A stretch of 64,000 nt of DNA, from NCBI GenBank assembly GCA_002835545.1, contig PIZK01000021.1, positions 1 to 64,000 of the forward strand, given 5' to 3'. The position numbers and the translations under genes were made by a program. Of the stretch, positions 23,460 through 31,013 are shown piece after piece (position 1 is the first letter of the stretch; every line of letters starts with the position of its first letter). The DNA is from Alteromonadales bacterium alter-6D02 (GTDB lineage: Bacteria > Pseudomonadota > Gammaproteobacteria > Enterobacterales > Psychrobiaceae). The notes under the pieces are model-generated. The model was not told the DNA's origin, did not search any database, and was given only the letters and a program-made list of their open reading frames with translations.

Positions 23460-24920
23460 ATGAACCCTCTTTTACAGATCACTGATTTACATTTTGACAT
23501 CGATCCACAGCATCAACTATCAATTGATTCTCTCACTATCAATAGCGGTGGGTCCTATTTATTTTGTGGTGATAACGCCAGTGGTAAGTCATTACTGGTA
23601 CAGCTAATTGCACAAGATAATTCAGACGTTCAAGGAACAATCACTCGGCCAGTGAAGACAAGCCTAGTCGGATTTAGTGTTGAAGATGAGATATTGGCCA
23701 TTGATCGCTATTTTGACCGCAGTGAAGATATCGAAGGGGGTATCGATTGGGGGCGCAGTGCCCAAGATGTAATTGGTCATAATGAGATAGCTAAACAGAT
23801 AACTGAGATGCTCAAGATAGAGCCGCTACTTAGTAAACCTTTTAAGGTACTATCAACGGGAGAAACACGTAAGGTATTACTTGCTCGAGCTTTAGTACAG
23901 AAACCTGACTTACTAATTCTAGATGAGCCTTATGCTGGGCTCGACATTGCATCACAACAGCACTTGACTGACACTTTAAACACCTTAATTTCACAAGGGT
24001 TAAGTGTAATCATTGTTGATTTCTACCATCAAGATTTACCGCAAAACCTCACTCACTTTTTACTAATGGCTAACGGAAAAGTTGTGACACAAGGCTTAAA
24101 ACAACACGTGATGGAGACTAAGCTATGGCAACAAGCCAACCAGCAAAAAGTGACTTTGCCACATCACTTACCAGACTGTCATGATTATCAACACCTAGAT
24201 TCAGATATTGCCTTTGTTATGATGAATAATGTCAGTGTCAGTTATGAAGATAACCAAGTGTTTAATAATTTTTCTTGGCACTTCAACTCTGGGCAACACT
24301 GGCGCTTAGCAGGACCAAACGGTTGCGGTAAATCAACACTTTTAAGTCTGATTAATGGCGATAACCCAAAAGCCTACGGTAAAGATATTCACTTATTTGG
24401 TGTCAAACGAGGTAGTGGCGAAACAGTTTGGGATATTAAAAAGCATTATGGTGTAGTCAGTGCTCAACTTCACCGAGACTATCGTGCAGGAGTGTCAGTG
24501 TTAGGGGCGGTATTATCAGGCTTTTTTGATACCATTGGCTTGTATGATCAACCCAGTGAACACCAAATTGATATTGCTAAACAATGGCTTGATTTATTAC
24601 AACTGAGCGAGCAAGCGAATAAACCGTTTTCTCAAATATCTTATGGTGAACAACGTTTAGTATTAATTGCTCGCGCTGTAGTCAAGTTACCGCTAATTTT
24701 AATTCTTGATGAACCTTGCCTAGGCTTAGATAACCAAAATAGAGCACAAATTTTAGCGTTAATTGATTACATCACTCGCCATAGTAATACCCACATTTTG
24801 TTTGTCAGTCACGATGCCAGAGATAAGTTACAATGTTTAACTCATCAACTGGACTTTATAAAGGAACACAAGGGTTATTCAATCAAACAAACTCAGTTAG
24901 CCAAGGACAATGATGAATAA
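23460..24920 (+). CDS. modF: ModF-like ATPase with two ABC domains
   Basis: This 486-residue soluble protein has two tandem ABC ATPase domains. Domain 1 has Walker A CGDNASGKS (degenerate), signature LSTGETRK and Walker B LLILDEPYAGLD. Domain 2 has AGPNGCGKST, HLFGVKRGSGETVWDIKKHYG and LILDEPCLGLD. Length and the RRGSGE-type stretch match E. coli ModF (490 residues), usually listed as a molybdate-linked ATPase though its role is unproved. No modABC genes are close by. The ribosome site is weak. It overlaps the DUF2970 gene. Confidence 0.88.
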   Translation: MNPLLQITDLHFDIDPQHQLSIDSLTINSGGSYLFCGDNASGKSLLVQLIAQDNSDVQGTITRPVKTSLVGFSVEDEILAIDRYFDRSEDIEGGIDWGRSAQDVIGHNEIAKQITEMLKIEPLLSKPFKVLSTGETRKVLLARALVQKPDLLILDEPYAGLDIASQQHLTDTLNTLISQGLSVIIVDFYHQDLPQNLTHFLLMANGKVVTQGLKQHVMETKLWQQANQQKVTLPHHLPDCHDYQHLDSDIAFVMMNNVSVSYEDNQVFNNFSWHFNSGQHWRLAGPNGCGKSTLLSLINGDNPKAYGKDIHLFGVKRGSGETVWDIKKHYGVVSAQLHRDYRAGVSVLGAVLSGFFDTIGLYDQPSEHQIDIAKQWLDLLQLSEQANKPFSQISYGEQRLVLIARAVVKLPLILILDEPCLGLDNQNRAQILALIDYITRHSNTHILFVSHDARDKLQCLTHQLDFIKEHKGYSIKQTQLAKDNDE

Positions 24921-25233: not shown

Positions 25234-25262
25234 TTGTTATATTATAACACTTGCTTTATATT
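25234..25262 (+). promoter_or_regulatory. Sigma-70 promoter of the ABC/TonB receptor operon
   Basis: TTGTTA (25234-25239), a 17-base spacer and TATATT (25257-25262) give five of six matches in the -10 and a fair -35. Transcription would start near 25269. Two Zur-like palindromes overlap the -35 and the start region. Confidence 0.6.
25235..25249. promoter_or_regulatory. Zur-like box 1
   Basis: TGTTATA-T-TATAACA is a perfect seven-base inverted repeat and matches the gammaproteobacterial Zur core TGTTATAnTATAACA at every defined base. The outer bases also fit partly (ACTT on the right). It overlaps the -35 element, a position suited to repression. Confidence 0.75.
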
Positions 25263-25263
25263 A

Positions 25264-25278
25264 TGTTATAACATAACA
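25264..25278. promoter_or_regulatory. Zur-like box 2
   Basis: TGTTATA-A-CATAACA matches the Zur core at 13 of 14 defined bases. It begins two bases after the -10 element and covers the expected transcription start. Its centre is 29 bases from that of box 1. Part of it also forms a perfect 16-base palindrome at 25261-25276. Confidence 0.65.
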
Positions 25279-25291
25279 AGTAGAGCCCATT

Positions 25292-26041
25292 ATGATTAAA
25301 ATAGACAAGCTAAGTAAGTCCTTTGCCGGTAACTTAGCACTTAATAATTTAAATTTAACGGTAAAAGAACAAAGCGTAACCTGCCTCCTCGGGGAAAATG
25401 GGGCAGGAAAGAGTACAACCCTCAACCTAATTCTTAACTTTATCTCTCCGGACAGTGGAACAATTACTGTTGATGGCATTGATACACAAAAGCAGCCACA
25501 AAAAAGTAAAGAAAAGCTGATTTATCTTCCTGAAAATATAAATTTATACCTTGAATTTAACGCCTTAGAGAACTTGAGCTACCTAGCAAAGCTTACCGGT
25601 GAGTCTCCAAGCACCAATGATATCGAGCAAGCCCTAAGACAAACAGGATTACAAGAGTCAGCTTGGCAAGAGCCACTAAGTAATTACTCAAAAGGGATGA
25701 GGCAAAAGGTCGGTATTGCGCTAGCTATTATTAGGAAAGCAAAAATTTTACTACTTGATGAACCAACATCAGGACTAGACCCAAGCGCAACGCTTGAGTT
25801 TATTCGGGTTATCAAGATGATGGTAGCCAATGGCGCTGCCGTATTAATGGTAACACACGACCTGCATTGTGCTCATGCCCTAGCAGACCAAATTGGCATT
25901 ATGAAACAGGGCTCATTGTGTGACTTATTCGAAACACAGTACCTATCAATGCAAGATGTTGAGTACAAATACCACCATCACATCATCAAGCCAATCGAAA
26001 GCCAGCACAATGCTGAAACAGTCTTAATTCAAGCAATATAA
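25292..26041 (+). CDS. ABC transporter ATP-binding protein, Zur-box operon
   Basis: This 249-residue ATPase is of the ABC-2/CcmA type. Walker A is GENGAGKST (34-42), the signature YSKGMRQK, Walker B ILLLDEPTSGLD and the switch histidine VTHDLH. The C-terminal tail contains YKYHHHIIK, a small histidine cluster that might bind metal. It is the first gene downstream of two Zur-like boxes and is followed by a TonB-dependent receptor and two permeases. It should energise the complex formed by those permeases. Substrate not known; zinc or a zinc-carrying ligand is inferred from the promoter. Confidence 0.85.
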   Translation: MIKIDKLSKSFAGNLALNNLNLTVKEQSVTCLLGENGAGKSTTLNLILNFISPDSGTITVDGIDTQKQPQKSKEKLIYLPENINLYLEFNALENLSYLAKLTGESPSTNDIEQALRQTGLQESAWQEPLSNYSKGMRQKVGIALAIIRKAKILLLDEPTSGLDPSATLEFIRVIKMMVANGAAVLMVTHDLHCAHALADQIGIMKQGSLCDLFETQYLSMQDVEYKYHHHIIKPIESQHNAETVLIQAI

Positions 26042-26074
26042 CTACTTAATACGTAGCAGGAACCTTAAAGTAAC

Positions 26075-28078
26075 ATGAACAACTTCCAACAGAACAAACT
26101 GACGACCACGCTTATCGCTATTTTAGGTTTAGGTGTTTTAAATACCGCCGTAGCCGAAAGTAAACAGAACGACTCAACCATAACCATTGGCGAAGTGATC
26201 AATGTCACCACGAGTAAGCATGTTCAAAAACAAACTAGCTTAGTTGGCGCAATTGATATAATCAGTCGCGACCAATTACAAAACCAACACACCAATGTCA
26301 CGGTTGATTTGTTAAAGAAGACACCTGGGCTGTATTTCTCACGTTTCAATCAAGGTATTGTATCTACCGATGTTGCGATGCGTGGTTTTAACGCTGAAGG
26401 GTCAATGCCTCATGTAAAAATGTTAATCGATGGCATTCCAAGTAATTTACATGTTGGCCTTTCAGAGATGGATGCACTGTTTCCAATGGAAGTGGAATCA
26501 ATCGAAATTGTTAAAGGAAACCACGATGCTCGATATGGACTGCACAATCTAGCAGGCAACATTAACTTAACCAGTCGACGTGATGATGCTAAAGAAATAG
26601 AACTCCTTGTCGGCAGCTTTAACACATCTGAAGCGCAAGCCTACTTTGGTGATGTTCAAGATAACTTCTCGCAACATTACTTTGTCGGCACACGAAAAAC
26701 AGATGGCTATCGCGATAATAGCGATCTGAACAAGCATACCCTTTCCGCTAAGTGGTTTTATCAGCCTAGCGATACTATGGAGCTTGGATTAATCGCTCGA
26801 TATTTCGACTACGAAGCAGATGCACCAGGTTACCTAACCGAGCAAGTAGCAAAGCAAGCACCAGAATCATCGGCTGATTATGCAGCCTATGATAAAGGCA
26901 GTAAACAAACAAGACACTTAAGCGCGCATTTAAACAACCAAATCAATGATATTTGGCACGTGAGTGCCAAAGTTTACTGGCAACAATTTGATCGCCATCG
27001 CTATGCACAATTTACAGCATCTTCAACACAACAAGAGCGTAATGAGCAAGATATTCATAGTGGTATAATTTTACAAGCTAGTGGTGAGTTAAGCCCTAAC
27101 TGGTTACTAACGTTAGGTTTAGATTACCAATCTCAAGAGAATATAAACCAACGCTTCACAACCGTGAAGCGCGTACGCCAAGGTAATCGTAGAGATTGGC
27201 AGTTCGACTATGATAATTATGGCGGCTTCACTCAATTGCAATACCGTCAAGGGCCTTTACTCATTAGTGGTGGTTTAAGATTTGATGGATTTAGTGGTGA
27301 TCTAACTGACGGTATCAAAGGGCAAACTAAACGACTCAACGATAACGATATCACCGTCCAACCAAAGCTTAACTTTTTATACGATATCAATGACTCTTTA
27401 AACTTTTTCGCCAACTACGGGGAAAGCTTTCAAGCACCTATTGGAAGCAAGGCATATGTCGGGCCAGACAACAAACACTATAAGCTTTCAATTAACACTG
27501 GGGTTGAAGCAGGCTTCACATGGATGCCGACGTCAACTGCAACGGCACGTTTATCAGTTTGGCAACAGGACGCACGTAACGAGCTAACACCAAAAACCGA
27601 TGGCAGCGGTGACTTTGAAAACTTGGGTAAAACCAAGCGCGAAGGTTGGGAACTTAGTTCTTATGTTGATCTGAATGACTCTTGGACTATTTTTGGCTCT
27701 TACGCTCAGCAGCAAGCTGAACTTCTTGAACCAGGAGAAAAACAAGCAGCCAGTAAGGGAAATACGTTAGCCGGTGTTCCTGATTACACCGCTACATTAG
27801 GACTTAGTTACCGTGTAACTGATGACTTCGTTATTTCTACATTCGCTAACAAACAACAAGCTTATTATGTAAGTAACGTCTATCAGGAGCGAAAATACGG
27901 TGCCGTTGACACAGTGGATCTCTCGCTAAGTTACGCGCTTGATAATATGGATTTGGGACTTAGCGTCACTAACTTGTTCGATACATACCAGGATTATGTC
28001 TACCTACTTGGCCAAGAAACTATTCACTCCCCTAGTGATGGTCGTGCAATTAGCGCCAATATTTCGTACCAATTTTAA
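26075..28078 (+). CDS. TonB-dependent outer membrane receptor, Zur-box operon
   Basis: This 667-residue protein has a signal peptide (about 1-27, ending AVAE), a plug domain (about 45-165: VDLLKKTPGLYFSR, DVAMRGFN, IEIVKGNHDARYGLHNLAGNINL) and a 22-strand barrel ending in the outer-membrane signal ISYQF. A TonB-box candidate is ITIGEVINV near 33-41. It should import a ligand too large or scarce for porins. Its gene lies 33 bases after the ATPase gene in one operon. ZnuD-like zinc receptors are one comparison, but I do not see a defining His-rich loop, so substrate assignment rests on the promoter. Confidence 0.87.
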   Translation: MNNFQQNKLTTTLIAILGLGVLNTAVAESKQNDSTITIGEVINVTTSKHVQKQTSLVGAIDIISRDQLQNQHTNVTVDLLKKTPGLYFSRFNQGIVSTDVAMRGFNAEGSMPHVKMLIDGIPSNLHVGLSEMDALFPMEVESIEIVKGNHDARYGLHNLAGNINLTSRRDDAKEIELLVGSFNTSEAQAYFGDVQDNFSQHYFVGTRKTDGYRDNSDLNKHTLSAKWFYQPSDTMELGLIARYFDYEADAPGYLTEQVAKQAPESSADYAAYDKGSKQTRHLSAHLNNQINDIWHVSAKVYWQQFDRHRYAQFTASSTQQERNEQDIHSGIILQASGELSPNWLLTLGLDYQSQENINQRFTTVKRVRQGNRRDWQFDYDNYGGFTQLQYRQGPLLISGGLRFDGFSGDLTDGIKGQTKRLNDNDITVQPKLNFLYDINDSLNFFANYGESFQAPIGSKAYVGPDNKHYKLSINTGVEAGFTWMPTSTATARLSVWQQDARNELTPKTDGSGDFENLGKTKREGWELSSYVDLNDSWTIFGSYAQQQAELLEPGEKQAASKGNTLAGVPDYTATLGLSYRVTDDFVISTFANKQQAYYVSNVYQERKYGAVDTVDLSLSYALDNMDLGLSVTNLFDTYQDYVYLLGQETIHSPSDGRAISANISYQF

Positions 28079-28088
28079 CACTAAACCT

Positions 28089-28125
28089 AGGTAGCAGCGA
28101 TTATAGGCTGCTACCTTTTATTTTT
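28089..28125 (+). terminator. Intra-operon terminator/attenuator after the receptor gene
   Basis: Ten-base arms AGGTAGCAGC (28089-28098) and GCTGCTACCT (28107-28116) enclose an 8-base loop. TTTTATTTTT follows. It looks like a standard intrinsic terminator and is only 12 bases before the GTG of the first permease, whose ribosome site (AAGGA) abuts the T run. Some read-through must occur if all four genes form one system. Confidence 0.8.
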
Positions 28126-28136
28126 AAGGAACGAGT

Positions 28137-29582
28137 GTGAATAGTCATTCCATCTGTTTGGCAGTTTGCCAGCAAGAACTCAAGCAAAAAGTTAAAAACA
28201 AAAGCGTATGGATTATGTTTGCGCTTTTACAGCTGTTGCTCGCCATTTCATTAGCCACCAGCTGGCAACAATTTAAGCAAAGCCATACGACCCAAGAAAC
28301 ATCACAAGCAATCGTTGAGCAACAATGGGTCGCTCAGCCAGATCGCCACCCTCACCGCGTTGCGCACTTTGGGCATTTTGCTTTTCGAGAGCCGAGTGTA
28401 TTAAGTTACTTTGACATAGGCATAAACAATTGGGTTGGCCATAGTGTCTTTTTAGAGGCACATAAACAAAATAGTGCTAACTTTGCCAATGATGATAACA
28501 CGAGTGAACTATTGCGCTTTTCAGAATTATCGGTCGCCAATATATTACTCGTCATTTGGCCAATGTTATTAATCACAATGGCGTTTGCTACGATTAGCGG
28601 TGAGAAAGAACAAGGGACATTAAAGAAAATATTAGCAATGGGCGTATCATTTCCAAAAATACTGACAGGTAAGATCTTCGCCTATCTGATCATTTCCGTT
28701 TCATTTATCTTACCCATATTCATCGCGACCGCTTTATTGGGAAGTTTTTTTCAATTAAGCTTCACTAGTGACACCGCGATGCGAATCGGCTTACTGTTTG
28801 CCCTTTATTTAGCTTACTGCTTATTTTGGATTGTAATCATTTTATGTTGCTCAAGCTTAAGTGCCTCATCTAAAGTCAGTTTAAGCACGCTAATCACCTT
28901 TTGGTTTATCGGTATCATTTTAGCACCGCGAGTACTCACTGATGTCGCACAGTCAATGCACCCAACTCAAACACGTTACGCTTTTATTAATGCCGTCAAA
29001 ACCGATGTAAAAAAAGTCGGTAATGGTCACAACCCTCAAGACCCTTACTTCAAGGCATTTAAAGAGAAAGTGTTAGCGAAATACAACGTCAAAAACGTTG
29101 CAGATCTACCCGTTAATTACCGTGGCCTAGTCATGAAAGAAGGTGAACGTGTTACTGCTGAAATCTATCAGCGCCATTATAAAAAGCAGCTAGACGCTTT
29201 CCAAGCACAACAAGATTTTCTCAGAAACTTTTATTGGTTTACACCATTACTCGCGACTCAGCACATATCAATGGCACTGACAGCTAGTAATAATAAACAC
29301 TTCTTTGATTTTGAAATGCAGGCTGAGCAGCATCGTTACGATCGTATTCAGCAACTAAATAACATACATATCGAAGAAATTAACTTTGCCCACGACAGGG
29401 ATGAAAAAGCATCTGCTGAACTTTGGAAAACCTTTCCATCATTTCATTATCAGCAACCCAGCTTAAAGCAATCGCTTGAGCCTTACTTATCAAGTGCTGC
29501 TATTTTCACCTTTACACTAACAGCATTAATTTTTGGTTTGTTTAGCTCATTTTTGAAACGGAGAGTCTATGTTAGCGCTTAA
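28137..29582 (+). CDS. ABC-2 type permease with large periplasmic domain (DUF3526-like)
   Basis: This 481-residue protein has a first membrane helix at about 24-42, a periplasmic region, five membrane helices between about 138 and 275, a large second soluble region (about 290-445) and a final helix near 455-472. This is the layout of COG1277/DUF3526 permeases. The first periplasmic part has a histidine-dense motif RHPHRVAHFGHFAF (70-83) and FLEAHKQN later. The start is GTG at 28137 after AAGGA. It overlaps the next permease by 14 bases, and the two probably form a heterodimer with the upstream ATPase. Confidence 0.78.
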   Translation: MNSHSICLAVCQQELKQKVKNKSVWIMFALLQLLLAISLATSWQQFKQSHTTQETSQAIVEQQWVAQPDRHPHRVAHFGHFAFREPSVLSYFDIGINNWVGHSVFLEAHKQNSANFANDDNTSELLRFSELSVANILLVIWPMLLITMAFATISGEKEQGTLKKILAMGVSFPKILTGKIFAYLIISVSFILPIFIATALLGSFFQLSFTSDTAMRIGLLFALYLAYCLFWIVIILCCSSLSASSKVSLSTLITFWFIGIILAPRVLTDVAQSMHPTQTRYAFINAVKTDVKKVGNGHNPQDPYFKAFKEKVLAKYNVKNVADLPVNYRGLVMKEGERVTAEIYQRHYKKQLDAFQAQQDFLRNFYWFTPLLATQHISMALTASNNKHFFDFEMQAEQHRYDRIQQLNNIHIEEINFAHDRDEKASAELWKTFPSFHYQQPSLKQSLEPYLSSAAIFTFTLTALIFGLFSSFLKRRVYVSA

Positions 29583-30942
29583 ATATGAATTTAAACGACT
29601 ATTTAGTGGCACAGTCTATAACATAAGTATTTTAGTTTTTTTACTCAGTGGCTTACTAGCTATCCATCTAGGGGGAGAGAGCTTTAATCGTATACAACAG
29701 GCTCAACAACAATCTATCATTGCTTTTGATAAACAAACGGCGCAACTAAAACTTGCACCGAAACTGCCAGAAATGGGATCGATCGCTTACTATGCGACAG
29801 CGCCTACAACTTGGCAATTAAATGGTTGGGCGGCTTTATTTAAAGGTCAGAGTCAAAACAACCTCACTTCAATGTCTGTTAATGCGCTTGCTTTACAAGG
29901 ACAAATCTATAATAAGGAGTTTATTAATCCTGATAAACATCGAGCTGGAGGATTTGATTTAGGCTTTGTTTTAGCTTATATGCTGCCGTTATTGATTGGT
30001 GTCTTATCGATTAATCTGCTAAGCGATGAAAAACAATCTGGGCGCTGGTCCTTGCTAAGCTCTTTTCCTGGAAATGCTGCTCAACAGATGATTATTAGGC
30101 TATTAGGGTTGCGCTTTGCACTAGTATCACTATTAGTTATCATATTGTTTTCCTATGCGGCGATATCATTATCATTACCAATAGATTATCAATTTACCAC
30201 CTTGCTATTCTTAAGCATCTTGTATTGCTTATTTTGGTTTGTTGTCGCAACGATTATCTTAAGCCTTAATAAAGGCAACCTGATTAATACGTTATTATTT
30301 ATCAGCACATGGTTAGTATTTGCAATTTTAATCCCTGGCACGATTCACTTAGCCATGAGTGAAAAGTTTAATCACAATGCGCCATTGAAAGCGAGTACTC
30401 AGCAAAGAATGGTATTAAATGATGGTTGGGATCAAGACAAGCATCAAGCTTTAACTGAGTTTTCACAACTGTATCCAGAGTTTAGCGAAAAGCTAACATT
30501 TGAAGGACGTTTTCATTGGAAGTGGTATTATGCGATGCAGCATTTAAGCGACCTGTCTGTCGCTCATCACTGGTCTGCGCATACTGAGAATATTTATAGC
30601 AAGGAGCGTTGGCTTAATAAGGTAAGTTGGTTATCTCCAAATCTTTCTTTCCAGCGATTGCTAAACAAGAGCGCTAATACTAACAGTTTATCTCACTTAG
30701 AATATTTGAAACAGGTTGAGTCATATCACACTGAAATAAGAGAGTTCATTTACCCTTACTTATTTAACGACACGCCAGTGACCGTTGAGGATGTTGACAA
30801 GTTTCCACGCTTTGAGGCTCGACAAGTAACACTTACGACAACGAGTATGAATTACCTACCGCATGGTTTATTCTTTTTGATACTGATTGTATTACTGACA
30901 GGCTGGGTCAAGCTTCGATTCAAAAAATTAGCCGTTTGCTAA
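29569..30942 (+). CDS. ABC-2 type permease, second subunit (DUF3526-like)
   Basis: This 457-residue protein has the same layout as its neighbour: one N-terminal helix, a periplasmic part, a five-helix block (about 140-265, including GFVLAYMLPLLIGVLSINLLSDEKQSGRWSLL), a soluble domain and a final helix (about 430-450). It is more divergent and lacks the His-dense motif. ATG 29569 follows GGAGAG and overlaps the end of the first permease gene. A strong terminator follows the gene. Together with the ATPase and the receptor it forms a four-gene unit without a periplasmic binding protein. Confidence 0.76.
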   Translation: MLALKYEFKRLFSGTVYNISILVFLLSGLLAIHLGGESFNRIQQAQQQSIIAFDKQTAQLKLAPKLPEMGSIAYYATAPTTWQLNGWAALFKGQSQNNLTSMSVNALALQGQIYNKEFINPDKHRAGGFDLGFVLAYMLPLLIGVLSINLLSDEKQSGRWSLLSSFPGNAAQQMIIRLLGLRFALVSLLVIILFSYAAISLSLPIDYQFTTLLFLSILYCLFWFVVATIILSLNKGNLINTLLFISTWLVFAILIPGTIHLAMSEKFNHNAPLKASTQQRMVLNDGWDQDKHQALTEFSQLYPEFSEKLTFEGRFHWKWYYAMQHLSDLSVAHHWSAHTENIYSKERWLNKVSWLSPNLSFQRLLNKSANTNSLSHLEYLKQVESYHTEIREFIYPYLFNDTPVTVEDVDKFPRFEARQVTLTTTSMNYLPHGLFFLILIVLLTGWVKLRFKKLAVC

Positions 30943-30978: not shown

Positions 30979-31013
30979 AAAGCGGTTAAGTGATCAACTT
31001 AACCGCTTTTTTA
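30979..31013. terminator. Terminator of the ABC/TonB operon
   Basis: Thirteen-base arms AAAGCGGTTAAGT and ACTTAACCGCTTT enclose GATCA, followed by TTTTTTA on the plus strand. A weaker run faces the convergent SCO1 gene. Confidence 0.88.

Follow-up and report, generated by a model that had tools for sequence, protein, structure and literature searches.

The 64-kb window analysed here (the whole stretch of 64,000 nucleotides from Alteromonadales bacterium alter-6D02) carries a plus-strand unit of four genes, encoding an ABC-2 transporter and a TonB-dependent receptor (TBDR), that is preceded by two Zur-type palindromes. The first gene (25292-26041) specifies an ABC-2 ATPase of 249 amino acids (aa), classed as ZnuG-like by domain search and homology. 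It is followed by a TBDR of 667 aa (26075-28078), assigned to the siderophore-receptor-like type by domain search, and by two ABC-2/DUF3526 permeases, permease 1 (ZnuH-like, 481 aa, GTG start; 28137-29582) and permease 2 (ZnuI-like, 457 aa; 29569-30942), all on the plus strand. The reading frames of the two permeases overlap by 14 nt. A first-pass annotation, made from the sequence alone, had proposed this gene content and placed the unit under zinc control by Zur. The domain search bore out the gene content and also two negative statements: no periplasmic binding protein was found among the four operon genes, and there is no likeness to znuABC, since the permeases are of the ABC-2 type and the operon contains no ZnuA-type protein. 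Gene starts in the scripted analyses were set mechanically.

Palindrome 1 (TGTTATATTATAACA, 25235-25249) reproduces the Zur core without mismatches and overlaps the -35 element, and palindrome 2 (TGTTATAACATAACA, 25264-25278), with one mismatch, lies between the -10 element and the ATG, starting 2 nt beyond the predicted -10. The promoter is a sigma-70-like site (25234-25262, plus strand) of the form TTGTTA-17-TATATT, with the -35 at 25234-25239, the -10 at 25257-25262 and a spacer of 17 nt; it matches the consensus at only 9 of 12 positions. Promoter-like sites numbered four against 1.1 expected. The three on the plus strand all scored 9/12 and one on the minus strand scored better (10/12), but TTGTTA-17-TATATT was the only plus-strand site lying entirely 5′ of the ATG, and for this promoter the operator placement first proposed, over the -35 and just past the -10, holds. 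The scan also recovered the two cores, one perfect and one with a single mismatch, where they had been annotated. They were the only matches with at most one mismatch in the window; over 100 shuffled sequences the average was 0.05 and two matches were never reached, and a chance origin of the pair was rejected on these figures. Relaxing the threshold removed the signal: eight matches with up to three mismatches occurred in the window against 7.16 expected, and 39 with up to two mismatches occurred genome-wide, the same number as in the reversed control. By these counts, most cores with two or three mismatches may be chance matches.

The genome (3.99 Mb in 45 contigs, listed as 100% complete) contains two Fur-family matches, one of which is a Zur candidate of 147 aa on contig C45 (L012:1465-1908); its best NCBIfam match was NF008646 with 159 bits, slightly under the cut-off of 167. 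Genome-wide, cores with at most one mismatch were found at ten sites in eight promoter regions, where about three sites would be expected by chance if the shuffle rate of the window is extrapolated. Apart from the promoter of the four-gene unit, such cores precede an ATPase/FtsX/M1-peptidase operon, from which a DUF3299 gene diverges, a ZrgA gene accompanied by an amidohydrolase gene and others, the DUF1826-MerC genes and a COG0523 GTPase gene. With two mismatches, the core precedes the gene for type-B L31 (NF002462, 122.6 bits) and that for a ZnuD-like TBDR on contig C34 (371.7 bits, cut-off 950). We take the ZrgA, DUF1826-MerC, ATPase/FtsX/M1, type-B L31 and ZnuD-like TBDR families to be members of Zur regulons. 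Ribosomal-protein paralogues and COG0523 are named as Zur-linked in the Discussion of PMC4176598. One-mismatch cores also stand before an M3 peptidase gene (L018:4145-6304) and an S41/Tricorn-like peptidase gene (L020:4177-7401), which are less clear and could be Zur targets or chance matches. A further one-mismatch core on contig C12 precedes a TBDR gene and a gene for a His-rich protein of 434 aa (L016:4270-8041). This protein contains an HDHDHDH run and had no Pfam match; it is possibly a zinc-binding protein. Together with the boxes and zinc-gene neighbours of relatives described below, the encoded Zur and the cores before Zur-regulon families support the predicted control by Zur and a role in zinc metabolism, as the annotation had supposed.

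A system of this kind, ZnuK-ZnuGHI (CC1517-CC1520), is known from Caulobacter crescentus. According to passages of PMC4176598, the TBDR gene znuK and the znuGHI genes, which specify the ATPase and the two permeases of an ABC-2 transporter, are repressed by Zur, with Zur binding observed by electrophoretic mobility-shift assay, and derepression followed either zinc depletion or loss of zur. In a passage of the review PMC6103462, ZnuGHI is counted among the ABC-type systems for zinc uptake, and the Caulobacter work on znuGHI and znuK is cited or restated in passages of PMC12838275 and PMC12058595. The published Zur operator was found verbatim in a C. vibrioides locus (L107, 7205-7223). When compared with the proteins of this locus, the operon ATPase showed 44% identity over 210 aa, permease 1 showed 35% over 449 columns, permease 2 showed 24% over 395 columns and the receptor showed 26% over 240 columns and a further short segment, together only part of the protein. 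These alignments make the operon distantly related to the published Zur-repressed system, and the kinship is well supported. The annotated Zur-linked TBDR/ABC-2 unit stood as such, but its kind was already known, because the relative described in the passages of PMC4176598 exists. In both systems a TBDR, for which the partial alignment does not establish orthology, adjoins the homologous ATPase and permeases of an ABC-2 transporter, with a Zur operator at the promoter that is assigned here by sequence alone. In contrast to the Caulobacter arrangement, in which the TBDR gene is divergent from znuGHI and a single operator lies between them, the window has the co-directional order ATPase-TBDR-permease-permease and two operators. 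Our literature search returned nothing on DUF3526.

The receptor and the permeases were then placed among known families. The receptor matched TIGR01783 with 159.8 bits, under the cut-off of 223.5, and its relatives of solved structure are YncD/PqqU, Fiu and FecA. It shares the link to Zur with ZnuD-type receptors, of which the ZnuD-like receptor on C34 is a separate example in this genome, but differs from them in being of the siderophore type, and the ZnuD model NF038289 was absent from the 16 models that matched it at E 0.001. For both permeases, predicted models adopted a NosY-like fold and the sequence profile was NosY-like too. Permease 1 carries a conserved loop in two segments, residues 68-84 (PDRHPHRVAHFGHFAFR; 28338-28388, plus strand) with H73 and H77, and residues 107-112 (EAHKQN; 28455-28472, plus strand) with E107 and H109. 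These four residues were invariant in all 78 aligned sequences, Bacteroidota among them, and the His/Glu loop may bind metal. Of the 104 permease-1 stretches, 77 were aligned with the window sequence; for permease 2, 64 of 95 stretches were aligned with it, as was L063, whose score fell short of the listed ones. Near duplicates, overlong frames and the second pairs of Gemmatimonadetes were excluded from both. Clusters with two permease pairs each (P1-P2-P1-P2) were observed in five Gemmatimonadetes metagenome-assembled genomes (L093, L104, L108, L120 and L140).

Of 394 genomes sampled from the order, 19 contained DUF3526, each in two copies, and relatives were seen in Pseudomonadota, Bacteroidota, Acidobacteriota and Gemmatimonadota. 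As the annotation had anticipated, Zur-like boxes also precede related operons: 17 of the 19 units of the order had an upstream box with up to three mismatches and 11 had one with up to two, compared to 1/23 and 0/23 control regions, respectively. Among the named loci, which are the best 80 of at least 213 confirmed and so give no census of phyla, with phylum labels assigned by eye, boxes with up to three mismatches were found at 12 of 32 loci from Pseudomonadota (control 1/53), 2 of 37 from Bacteroidota (control 6/80) and 0 of 11 others (control 0/8). For each unit the best score within one upstream region (72/99 loci) or within two (27/99) was taken, while a control was scored on one region. 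Boxes with three mismatches are weak alone in L065, L073, L075 and L078 (p 0.03-0.06), and L064 lies at a contig edge. A TBDR occurred within 3.5 kb of 16/19 units of the order, 24/32 in Pseudomonadota, 36/37 in Bacteroidota and 3/11 elsewhere, as counted by phmmer with four receptors, a search that misses some (e.g. the second TBDR of L084). For the divergent DUF3526 unit in G096 (L063), the upstream box region is missing because the contig stops some 150 bases 5′ of the ATPase frame. A perfect 20-bp palindrome (TGTTATGTTATAACATAACA, L063:928-947) lies 3′ of that unit, and the same form occurs in the alter-6D02 genome at C19:98042-98061.

The genomic neighbourhood of relatives also points to zinc. 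A relative of a zinc-regulon query was found in the fetched flanks of 15 of 122 loci, a count to be read with the breadth of the COG0523 and FtsX families and with three of the queries having come from L162 itself. Family f66 had DUF3526 in 8 of 391 genomes, with permeases of a divergent subtype, and in four of these (G593, G991, G1038 and G1051) genes for AztC, AztD and Zur lie beside the ABC-2 unit, with boxes of one to three mismatches; the G1038 copy of AztD is split into two frames and that of G1051 is partial. A fifth genome (G1025) has Zur and COG0523 by the unit and the remaining three lack all of the queries. Among the limited set of proteins scanned beside the G593 unit, none was recognised as an ABC-3 permease, and a second ZnuA is encoded elsewhere in that genome. 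The arrangement AztD-AztC-Zur, next to a TBDR and an ABC-2 unit of the DUF3526 type, was seen at L162 (G593), L181, L182 and L183. Closer to the window, its own clade consists of two Pseudoalteromonas loci, Thalassotalea, G302 and two Methylophaga loci, with permease 1 identities of 38-51%. In both Methylophaga loci (L085 and L086), zur is immediately followed by the gene order of the window, within a single run: COG0523, DUF1826, ZrgA, Zur, ATPase, TBDR, P1, P2, COG0523 and, later, an FtsX-type permease (by phmmer in both, by Pfam in L085). In Thalassotalea (L084), a run of TBDR, TBDR, ATPase, P1 and P2 is preceded by overlapping two-mismatch sites (2691-2710) before the first TBDR; these sites speak by their place rather than their number, because 150 of 200 shuffles of L084 gave two or more matches with up to three mismatches.

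The known zinc importers ZnuABC and AztABCD work with ABC-3 permeases and with a binding protein of the ZnuA family. They share Zur regulation with the unit, and AztC and AztD adjoin it in some relatives, but neither an ABC-3 zinc permease nor a ZnuA-family protein was found in the alter-6D02 genome. At E 0.001, the genome gave no match for ZnuA and none for ZIP, and its sole ABC-3 match (20.2 bits) was a FecCD permease. A likeness of the unit to ZnuABC was rejected on account of its ABC-2 permeases, the lack of ZnuA and the identity of that single match. In the order, ZnuA was present in 5 of 19 genomes with DUF3526 versus 278 of 375 without it (Fisher p 3.2e-5), and in a phylum draw in 5 of 19 versus 282 of 359 (Fisher p 3.8e-6). 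Among the order's 19 DUF3526 genomes, 11 gave ZIP matches, above the cut-off in six, and five of the 19 (G000, G041, G271, G339 and G374) had neither a ZnuA nor a ZIP match.

The explanation that we favour, with a rough probability of 0.56, is that the operon is a Zur-repressed uptake system for zinc or a zinc-ligand complex, in which the receptor feeds a NosY-like ABC-2 importer. In the presence of zinc, Zur would occupy the two operators over the promoter and block transcription, and zinc scarcity would derepress the operon; the operon is very probably switched on at zinc shortage. The TBDR would then carry zinc or a zinc-ligand complex through the outer membrane and the transporter, made up of the ATPase and the two DUF3526 permeases and of the type V fold, would drive the substrate through the inner membrane. 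The conserved His/Glu loop and the DUF3526 domains would stand in for a separate binding protein. Uptake of zinc or a zinc complex by the receptor and the ABC-2 transporter is thus the probable function. The ligand appears to be self-made in some relatives and, in this organism, would be scavenged or of another kind. Regulation and kinship are well supported, while repression in vivo, the substrate and the direction of import are what we infer.

A different direction of transport was one of two offered in the first-pass annotation, namely that the ABC-2 pair secretes a zinc-binding ligand whose complex the TBDR retrieves. Type V and ABC-2 transporters are mostly exporters and the receptor resembles siderophore receptors, and both facts agree with such a zincophore exporter. 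Genes of the metallophore type were indeed found next to the unit in relatives. In two Pseudoalteromonas loci (L082:4405-10773 and L083:4488-10773), a nicotianamine synthase (NAS) family gene (PF03059 in L082, 141.8 bits, cut-off 27.1), an MFS gene and a gene of 150-192 aa without Pfam match are followed by a two-mismatch box, the ATPase, P1 and P2. Sites with two or three mismatches precede the NAS gene as well, so that both parts of the run have boxes; L082 has three matches in total against 1.75 expected. We consider these runs a candidate zincophore locus; nothing joining NAS, metallophores and Pseudoalteromonas was returned by the literature search. They resemble the opine zincophore loci, those of pseudopaline and staphylopine, in combining a NAS-family gene and an MFS gene with a transporter unit within a single run that carries Zur-like boxes, and differ from them in that no opine dehydrogenase was recognised in L082 and the permeases are ABC-2. 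In G302 (L072:453-9857), genes for a GHMP kinase, a pyridoxal-phosphate (PLP) enzyme and DUF418 are followed by ATPase-P1-P2 in one run, and an ATP-grasp ligase gene and a DUF364 gene (putative heavy-metal chelation) are divergent, with overlapping three-mismatch sites (2645-2664) between. This second candidate appears metallophore-like, with a chemistry unlike that of the Pseudoalteromonas locus. Metallophore-synthesis-like genes therefore stand with the unit in three of its six close relatives. However, the Pseudoalteromonas loci do not settle an export role for the ABC-2 pair, because the neighbouring MFS protein already offers a possible route of export. For the unit in the window itself, the secretion idea was not borne out: the operon has no biosynthesis gene, the genome gave no match to NAS, and phmmer detected no counterpart of the L072 and L082 enzymes in the window or the 18 stretches of the same genome to which this search extended. 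In addition, the presence of AztC and AztD next to the unit in other relatives speaks for uptake. Altogether, we regard ligand export by this unit as unlikely.

Several observations weigh against import as well. Besides the prevalence of exporters among type V and ABC-2 transporters, no transport test of znuGHI appears in the passages of PMC4176598, its Discussion included, or in those of PMC6103462, and the biosynthesis genes by three relatives would suit ligand export as well. No TBDR was found within 3.5 kb of the unit in G302 or in either Pseudoalteromonas locus. The boxes are also uneven in the closest clade: none lies near the unit in Methylophaga, where L085 has no box with up to three mismatches at all and the one-mismatch box of L086 precedes an ATPase/FtsX pair, and those of L084 and G302 precede longer gene runs, have two or three mismatches and are not unusual by the whole-locus shuffles of L084. 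The deficit in ZnuA tracks lineage, since, among the matches listed, families f7 and f8 seem largely devoid of ZnuA with or without the unit, and ZnuA and the unit coexist in five of 19 genomes of each draw. Strict complementarity with ZnuABC was accordingly not upheld, the pattern being lineage-linked and not exclusive, and because of this pattern and because Fisher's test treats genomes as independent, the deficit is support and not proof. Finally, the relatives from Bacteroidota share the invariant loop yet show no excess of boxes, which weakens the His motif as a mark of zinc; for this reason the loop alone is no proof of the metal.

The permease fold suggests another possibility. The NosDFY system, which assembles a copper centre, works as a mechanotransducer without transport through the membrane, and an ATPase-permease complex of the same kind could spend ATP on periplasmic partners, for instance in loading or unloading zinc carriers, and transport nothing. 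The window permeases share fold and sequence profile with NosFY, but NosY chains lack room for the DUF3526 insert because they have only about 250-275 residues; regulation differs, and no NosD-like partner is encoded among the four genes. Such a role would, moreover, leave the genome without a recognised inner-membrane zinc importer, and we consider it quite improbable. The least probable alternative, to which we give little credence, is that the transporter moves a lipid, a peptide or another metal and is merely co-induced at zinc starvation, as might be argued from the breadth of a family that is not always linked to boxes (Bacteroidota and 11 other non-proteobacterial loci) and whose divergent members adjoin PepSY-like proteins (L185, recognised by eye), and against which stand the steady linkage to a TBDR and the zinc-gene neighbours in Methylophaga and f66.

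Two putative RNA elements, absent from the first-pass annotation, may shape the expression of the operon. A strong stem-loop followed by TTTATTTTTA, a T tract, lies between the receptor and the permease genes (28089-28116, plus strand) and is a candidate intra-operon terminator or attenuator; the region 28079-28130 folds with -19.5 kcal/mol (z -4.73). Through this element, the level of receptor mRNA could exceed that of permease mRNA, uncoupling the two. A second terminator-like site, with a stem of 13 pairs and a T run, is located 3′ of the last gene (30979-31009, plus strand). Seven terminator-like sites were found between 25900 and 31100, where 4.4 were expected. Upstream of the operon, the window encodes a protein with two ABC-ATPase halves (23460-24920), presumably ModF-like.

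An ABC-2 transporter of NosY-like fold is an unusual build for a metal importer. Although the kind of system is known, the transport step of this pair is a good question, given that ZnuABC and ZIP are not recognised in the genome, that two strong operators precede the operon, and that relatives lie in zinc islands or beside metallophore-type genes. A wider proposal, which we offer tentatively and hold to be somewhat doubtful, is that the NosY-fold ABC-2 pair is an energised importer of zinc or zincophore-bound zinc, with the loop and DUF3526 replacing the binding protein, and that it forms the main inner-membrane route for zinc in bacteria devoid of ZnuABC and ZIP; it would be served in Pseudoalteromonas by a self-made, nicotianamine-like zincophore exported through the MFS protein and in some alphaproteobacteria by AztC and AztD. 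Should the unit not be an importer, zinc would enter such bacteria by a route still unnamed. If it does import zinc or a zinc-ligand complex, zinc uptake would have a second design that is widespread, DUF3526 would gain a function, and the NAS neighbours in Pseudoalteromonas would provide a direct way towards the ligand.

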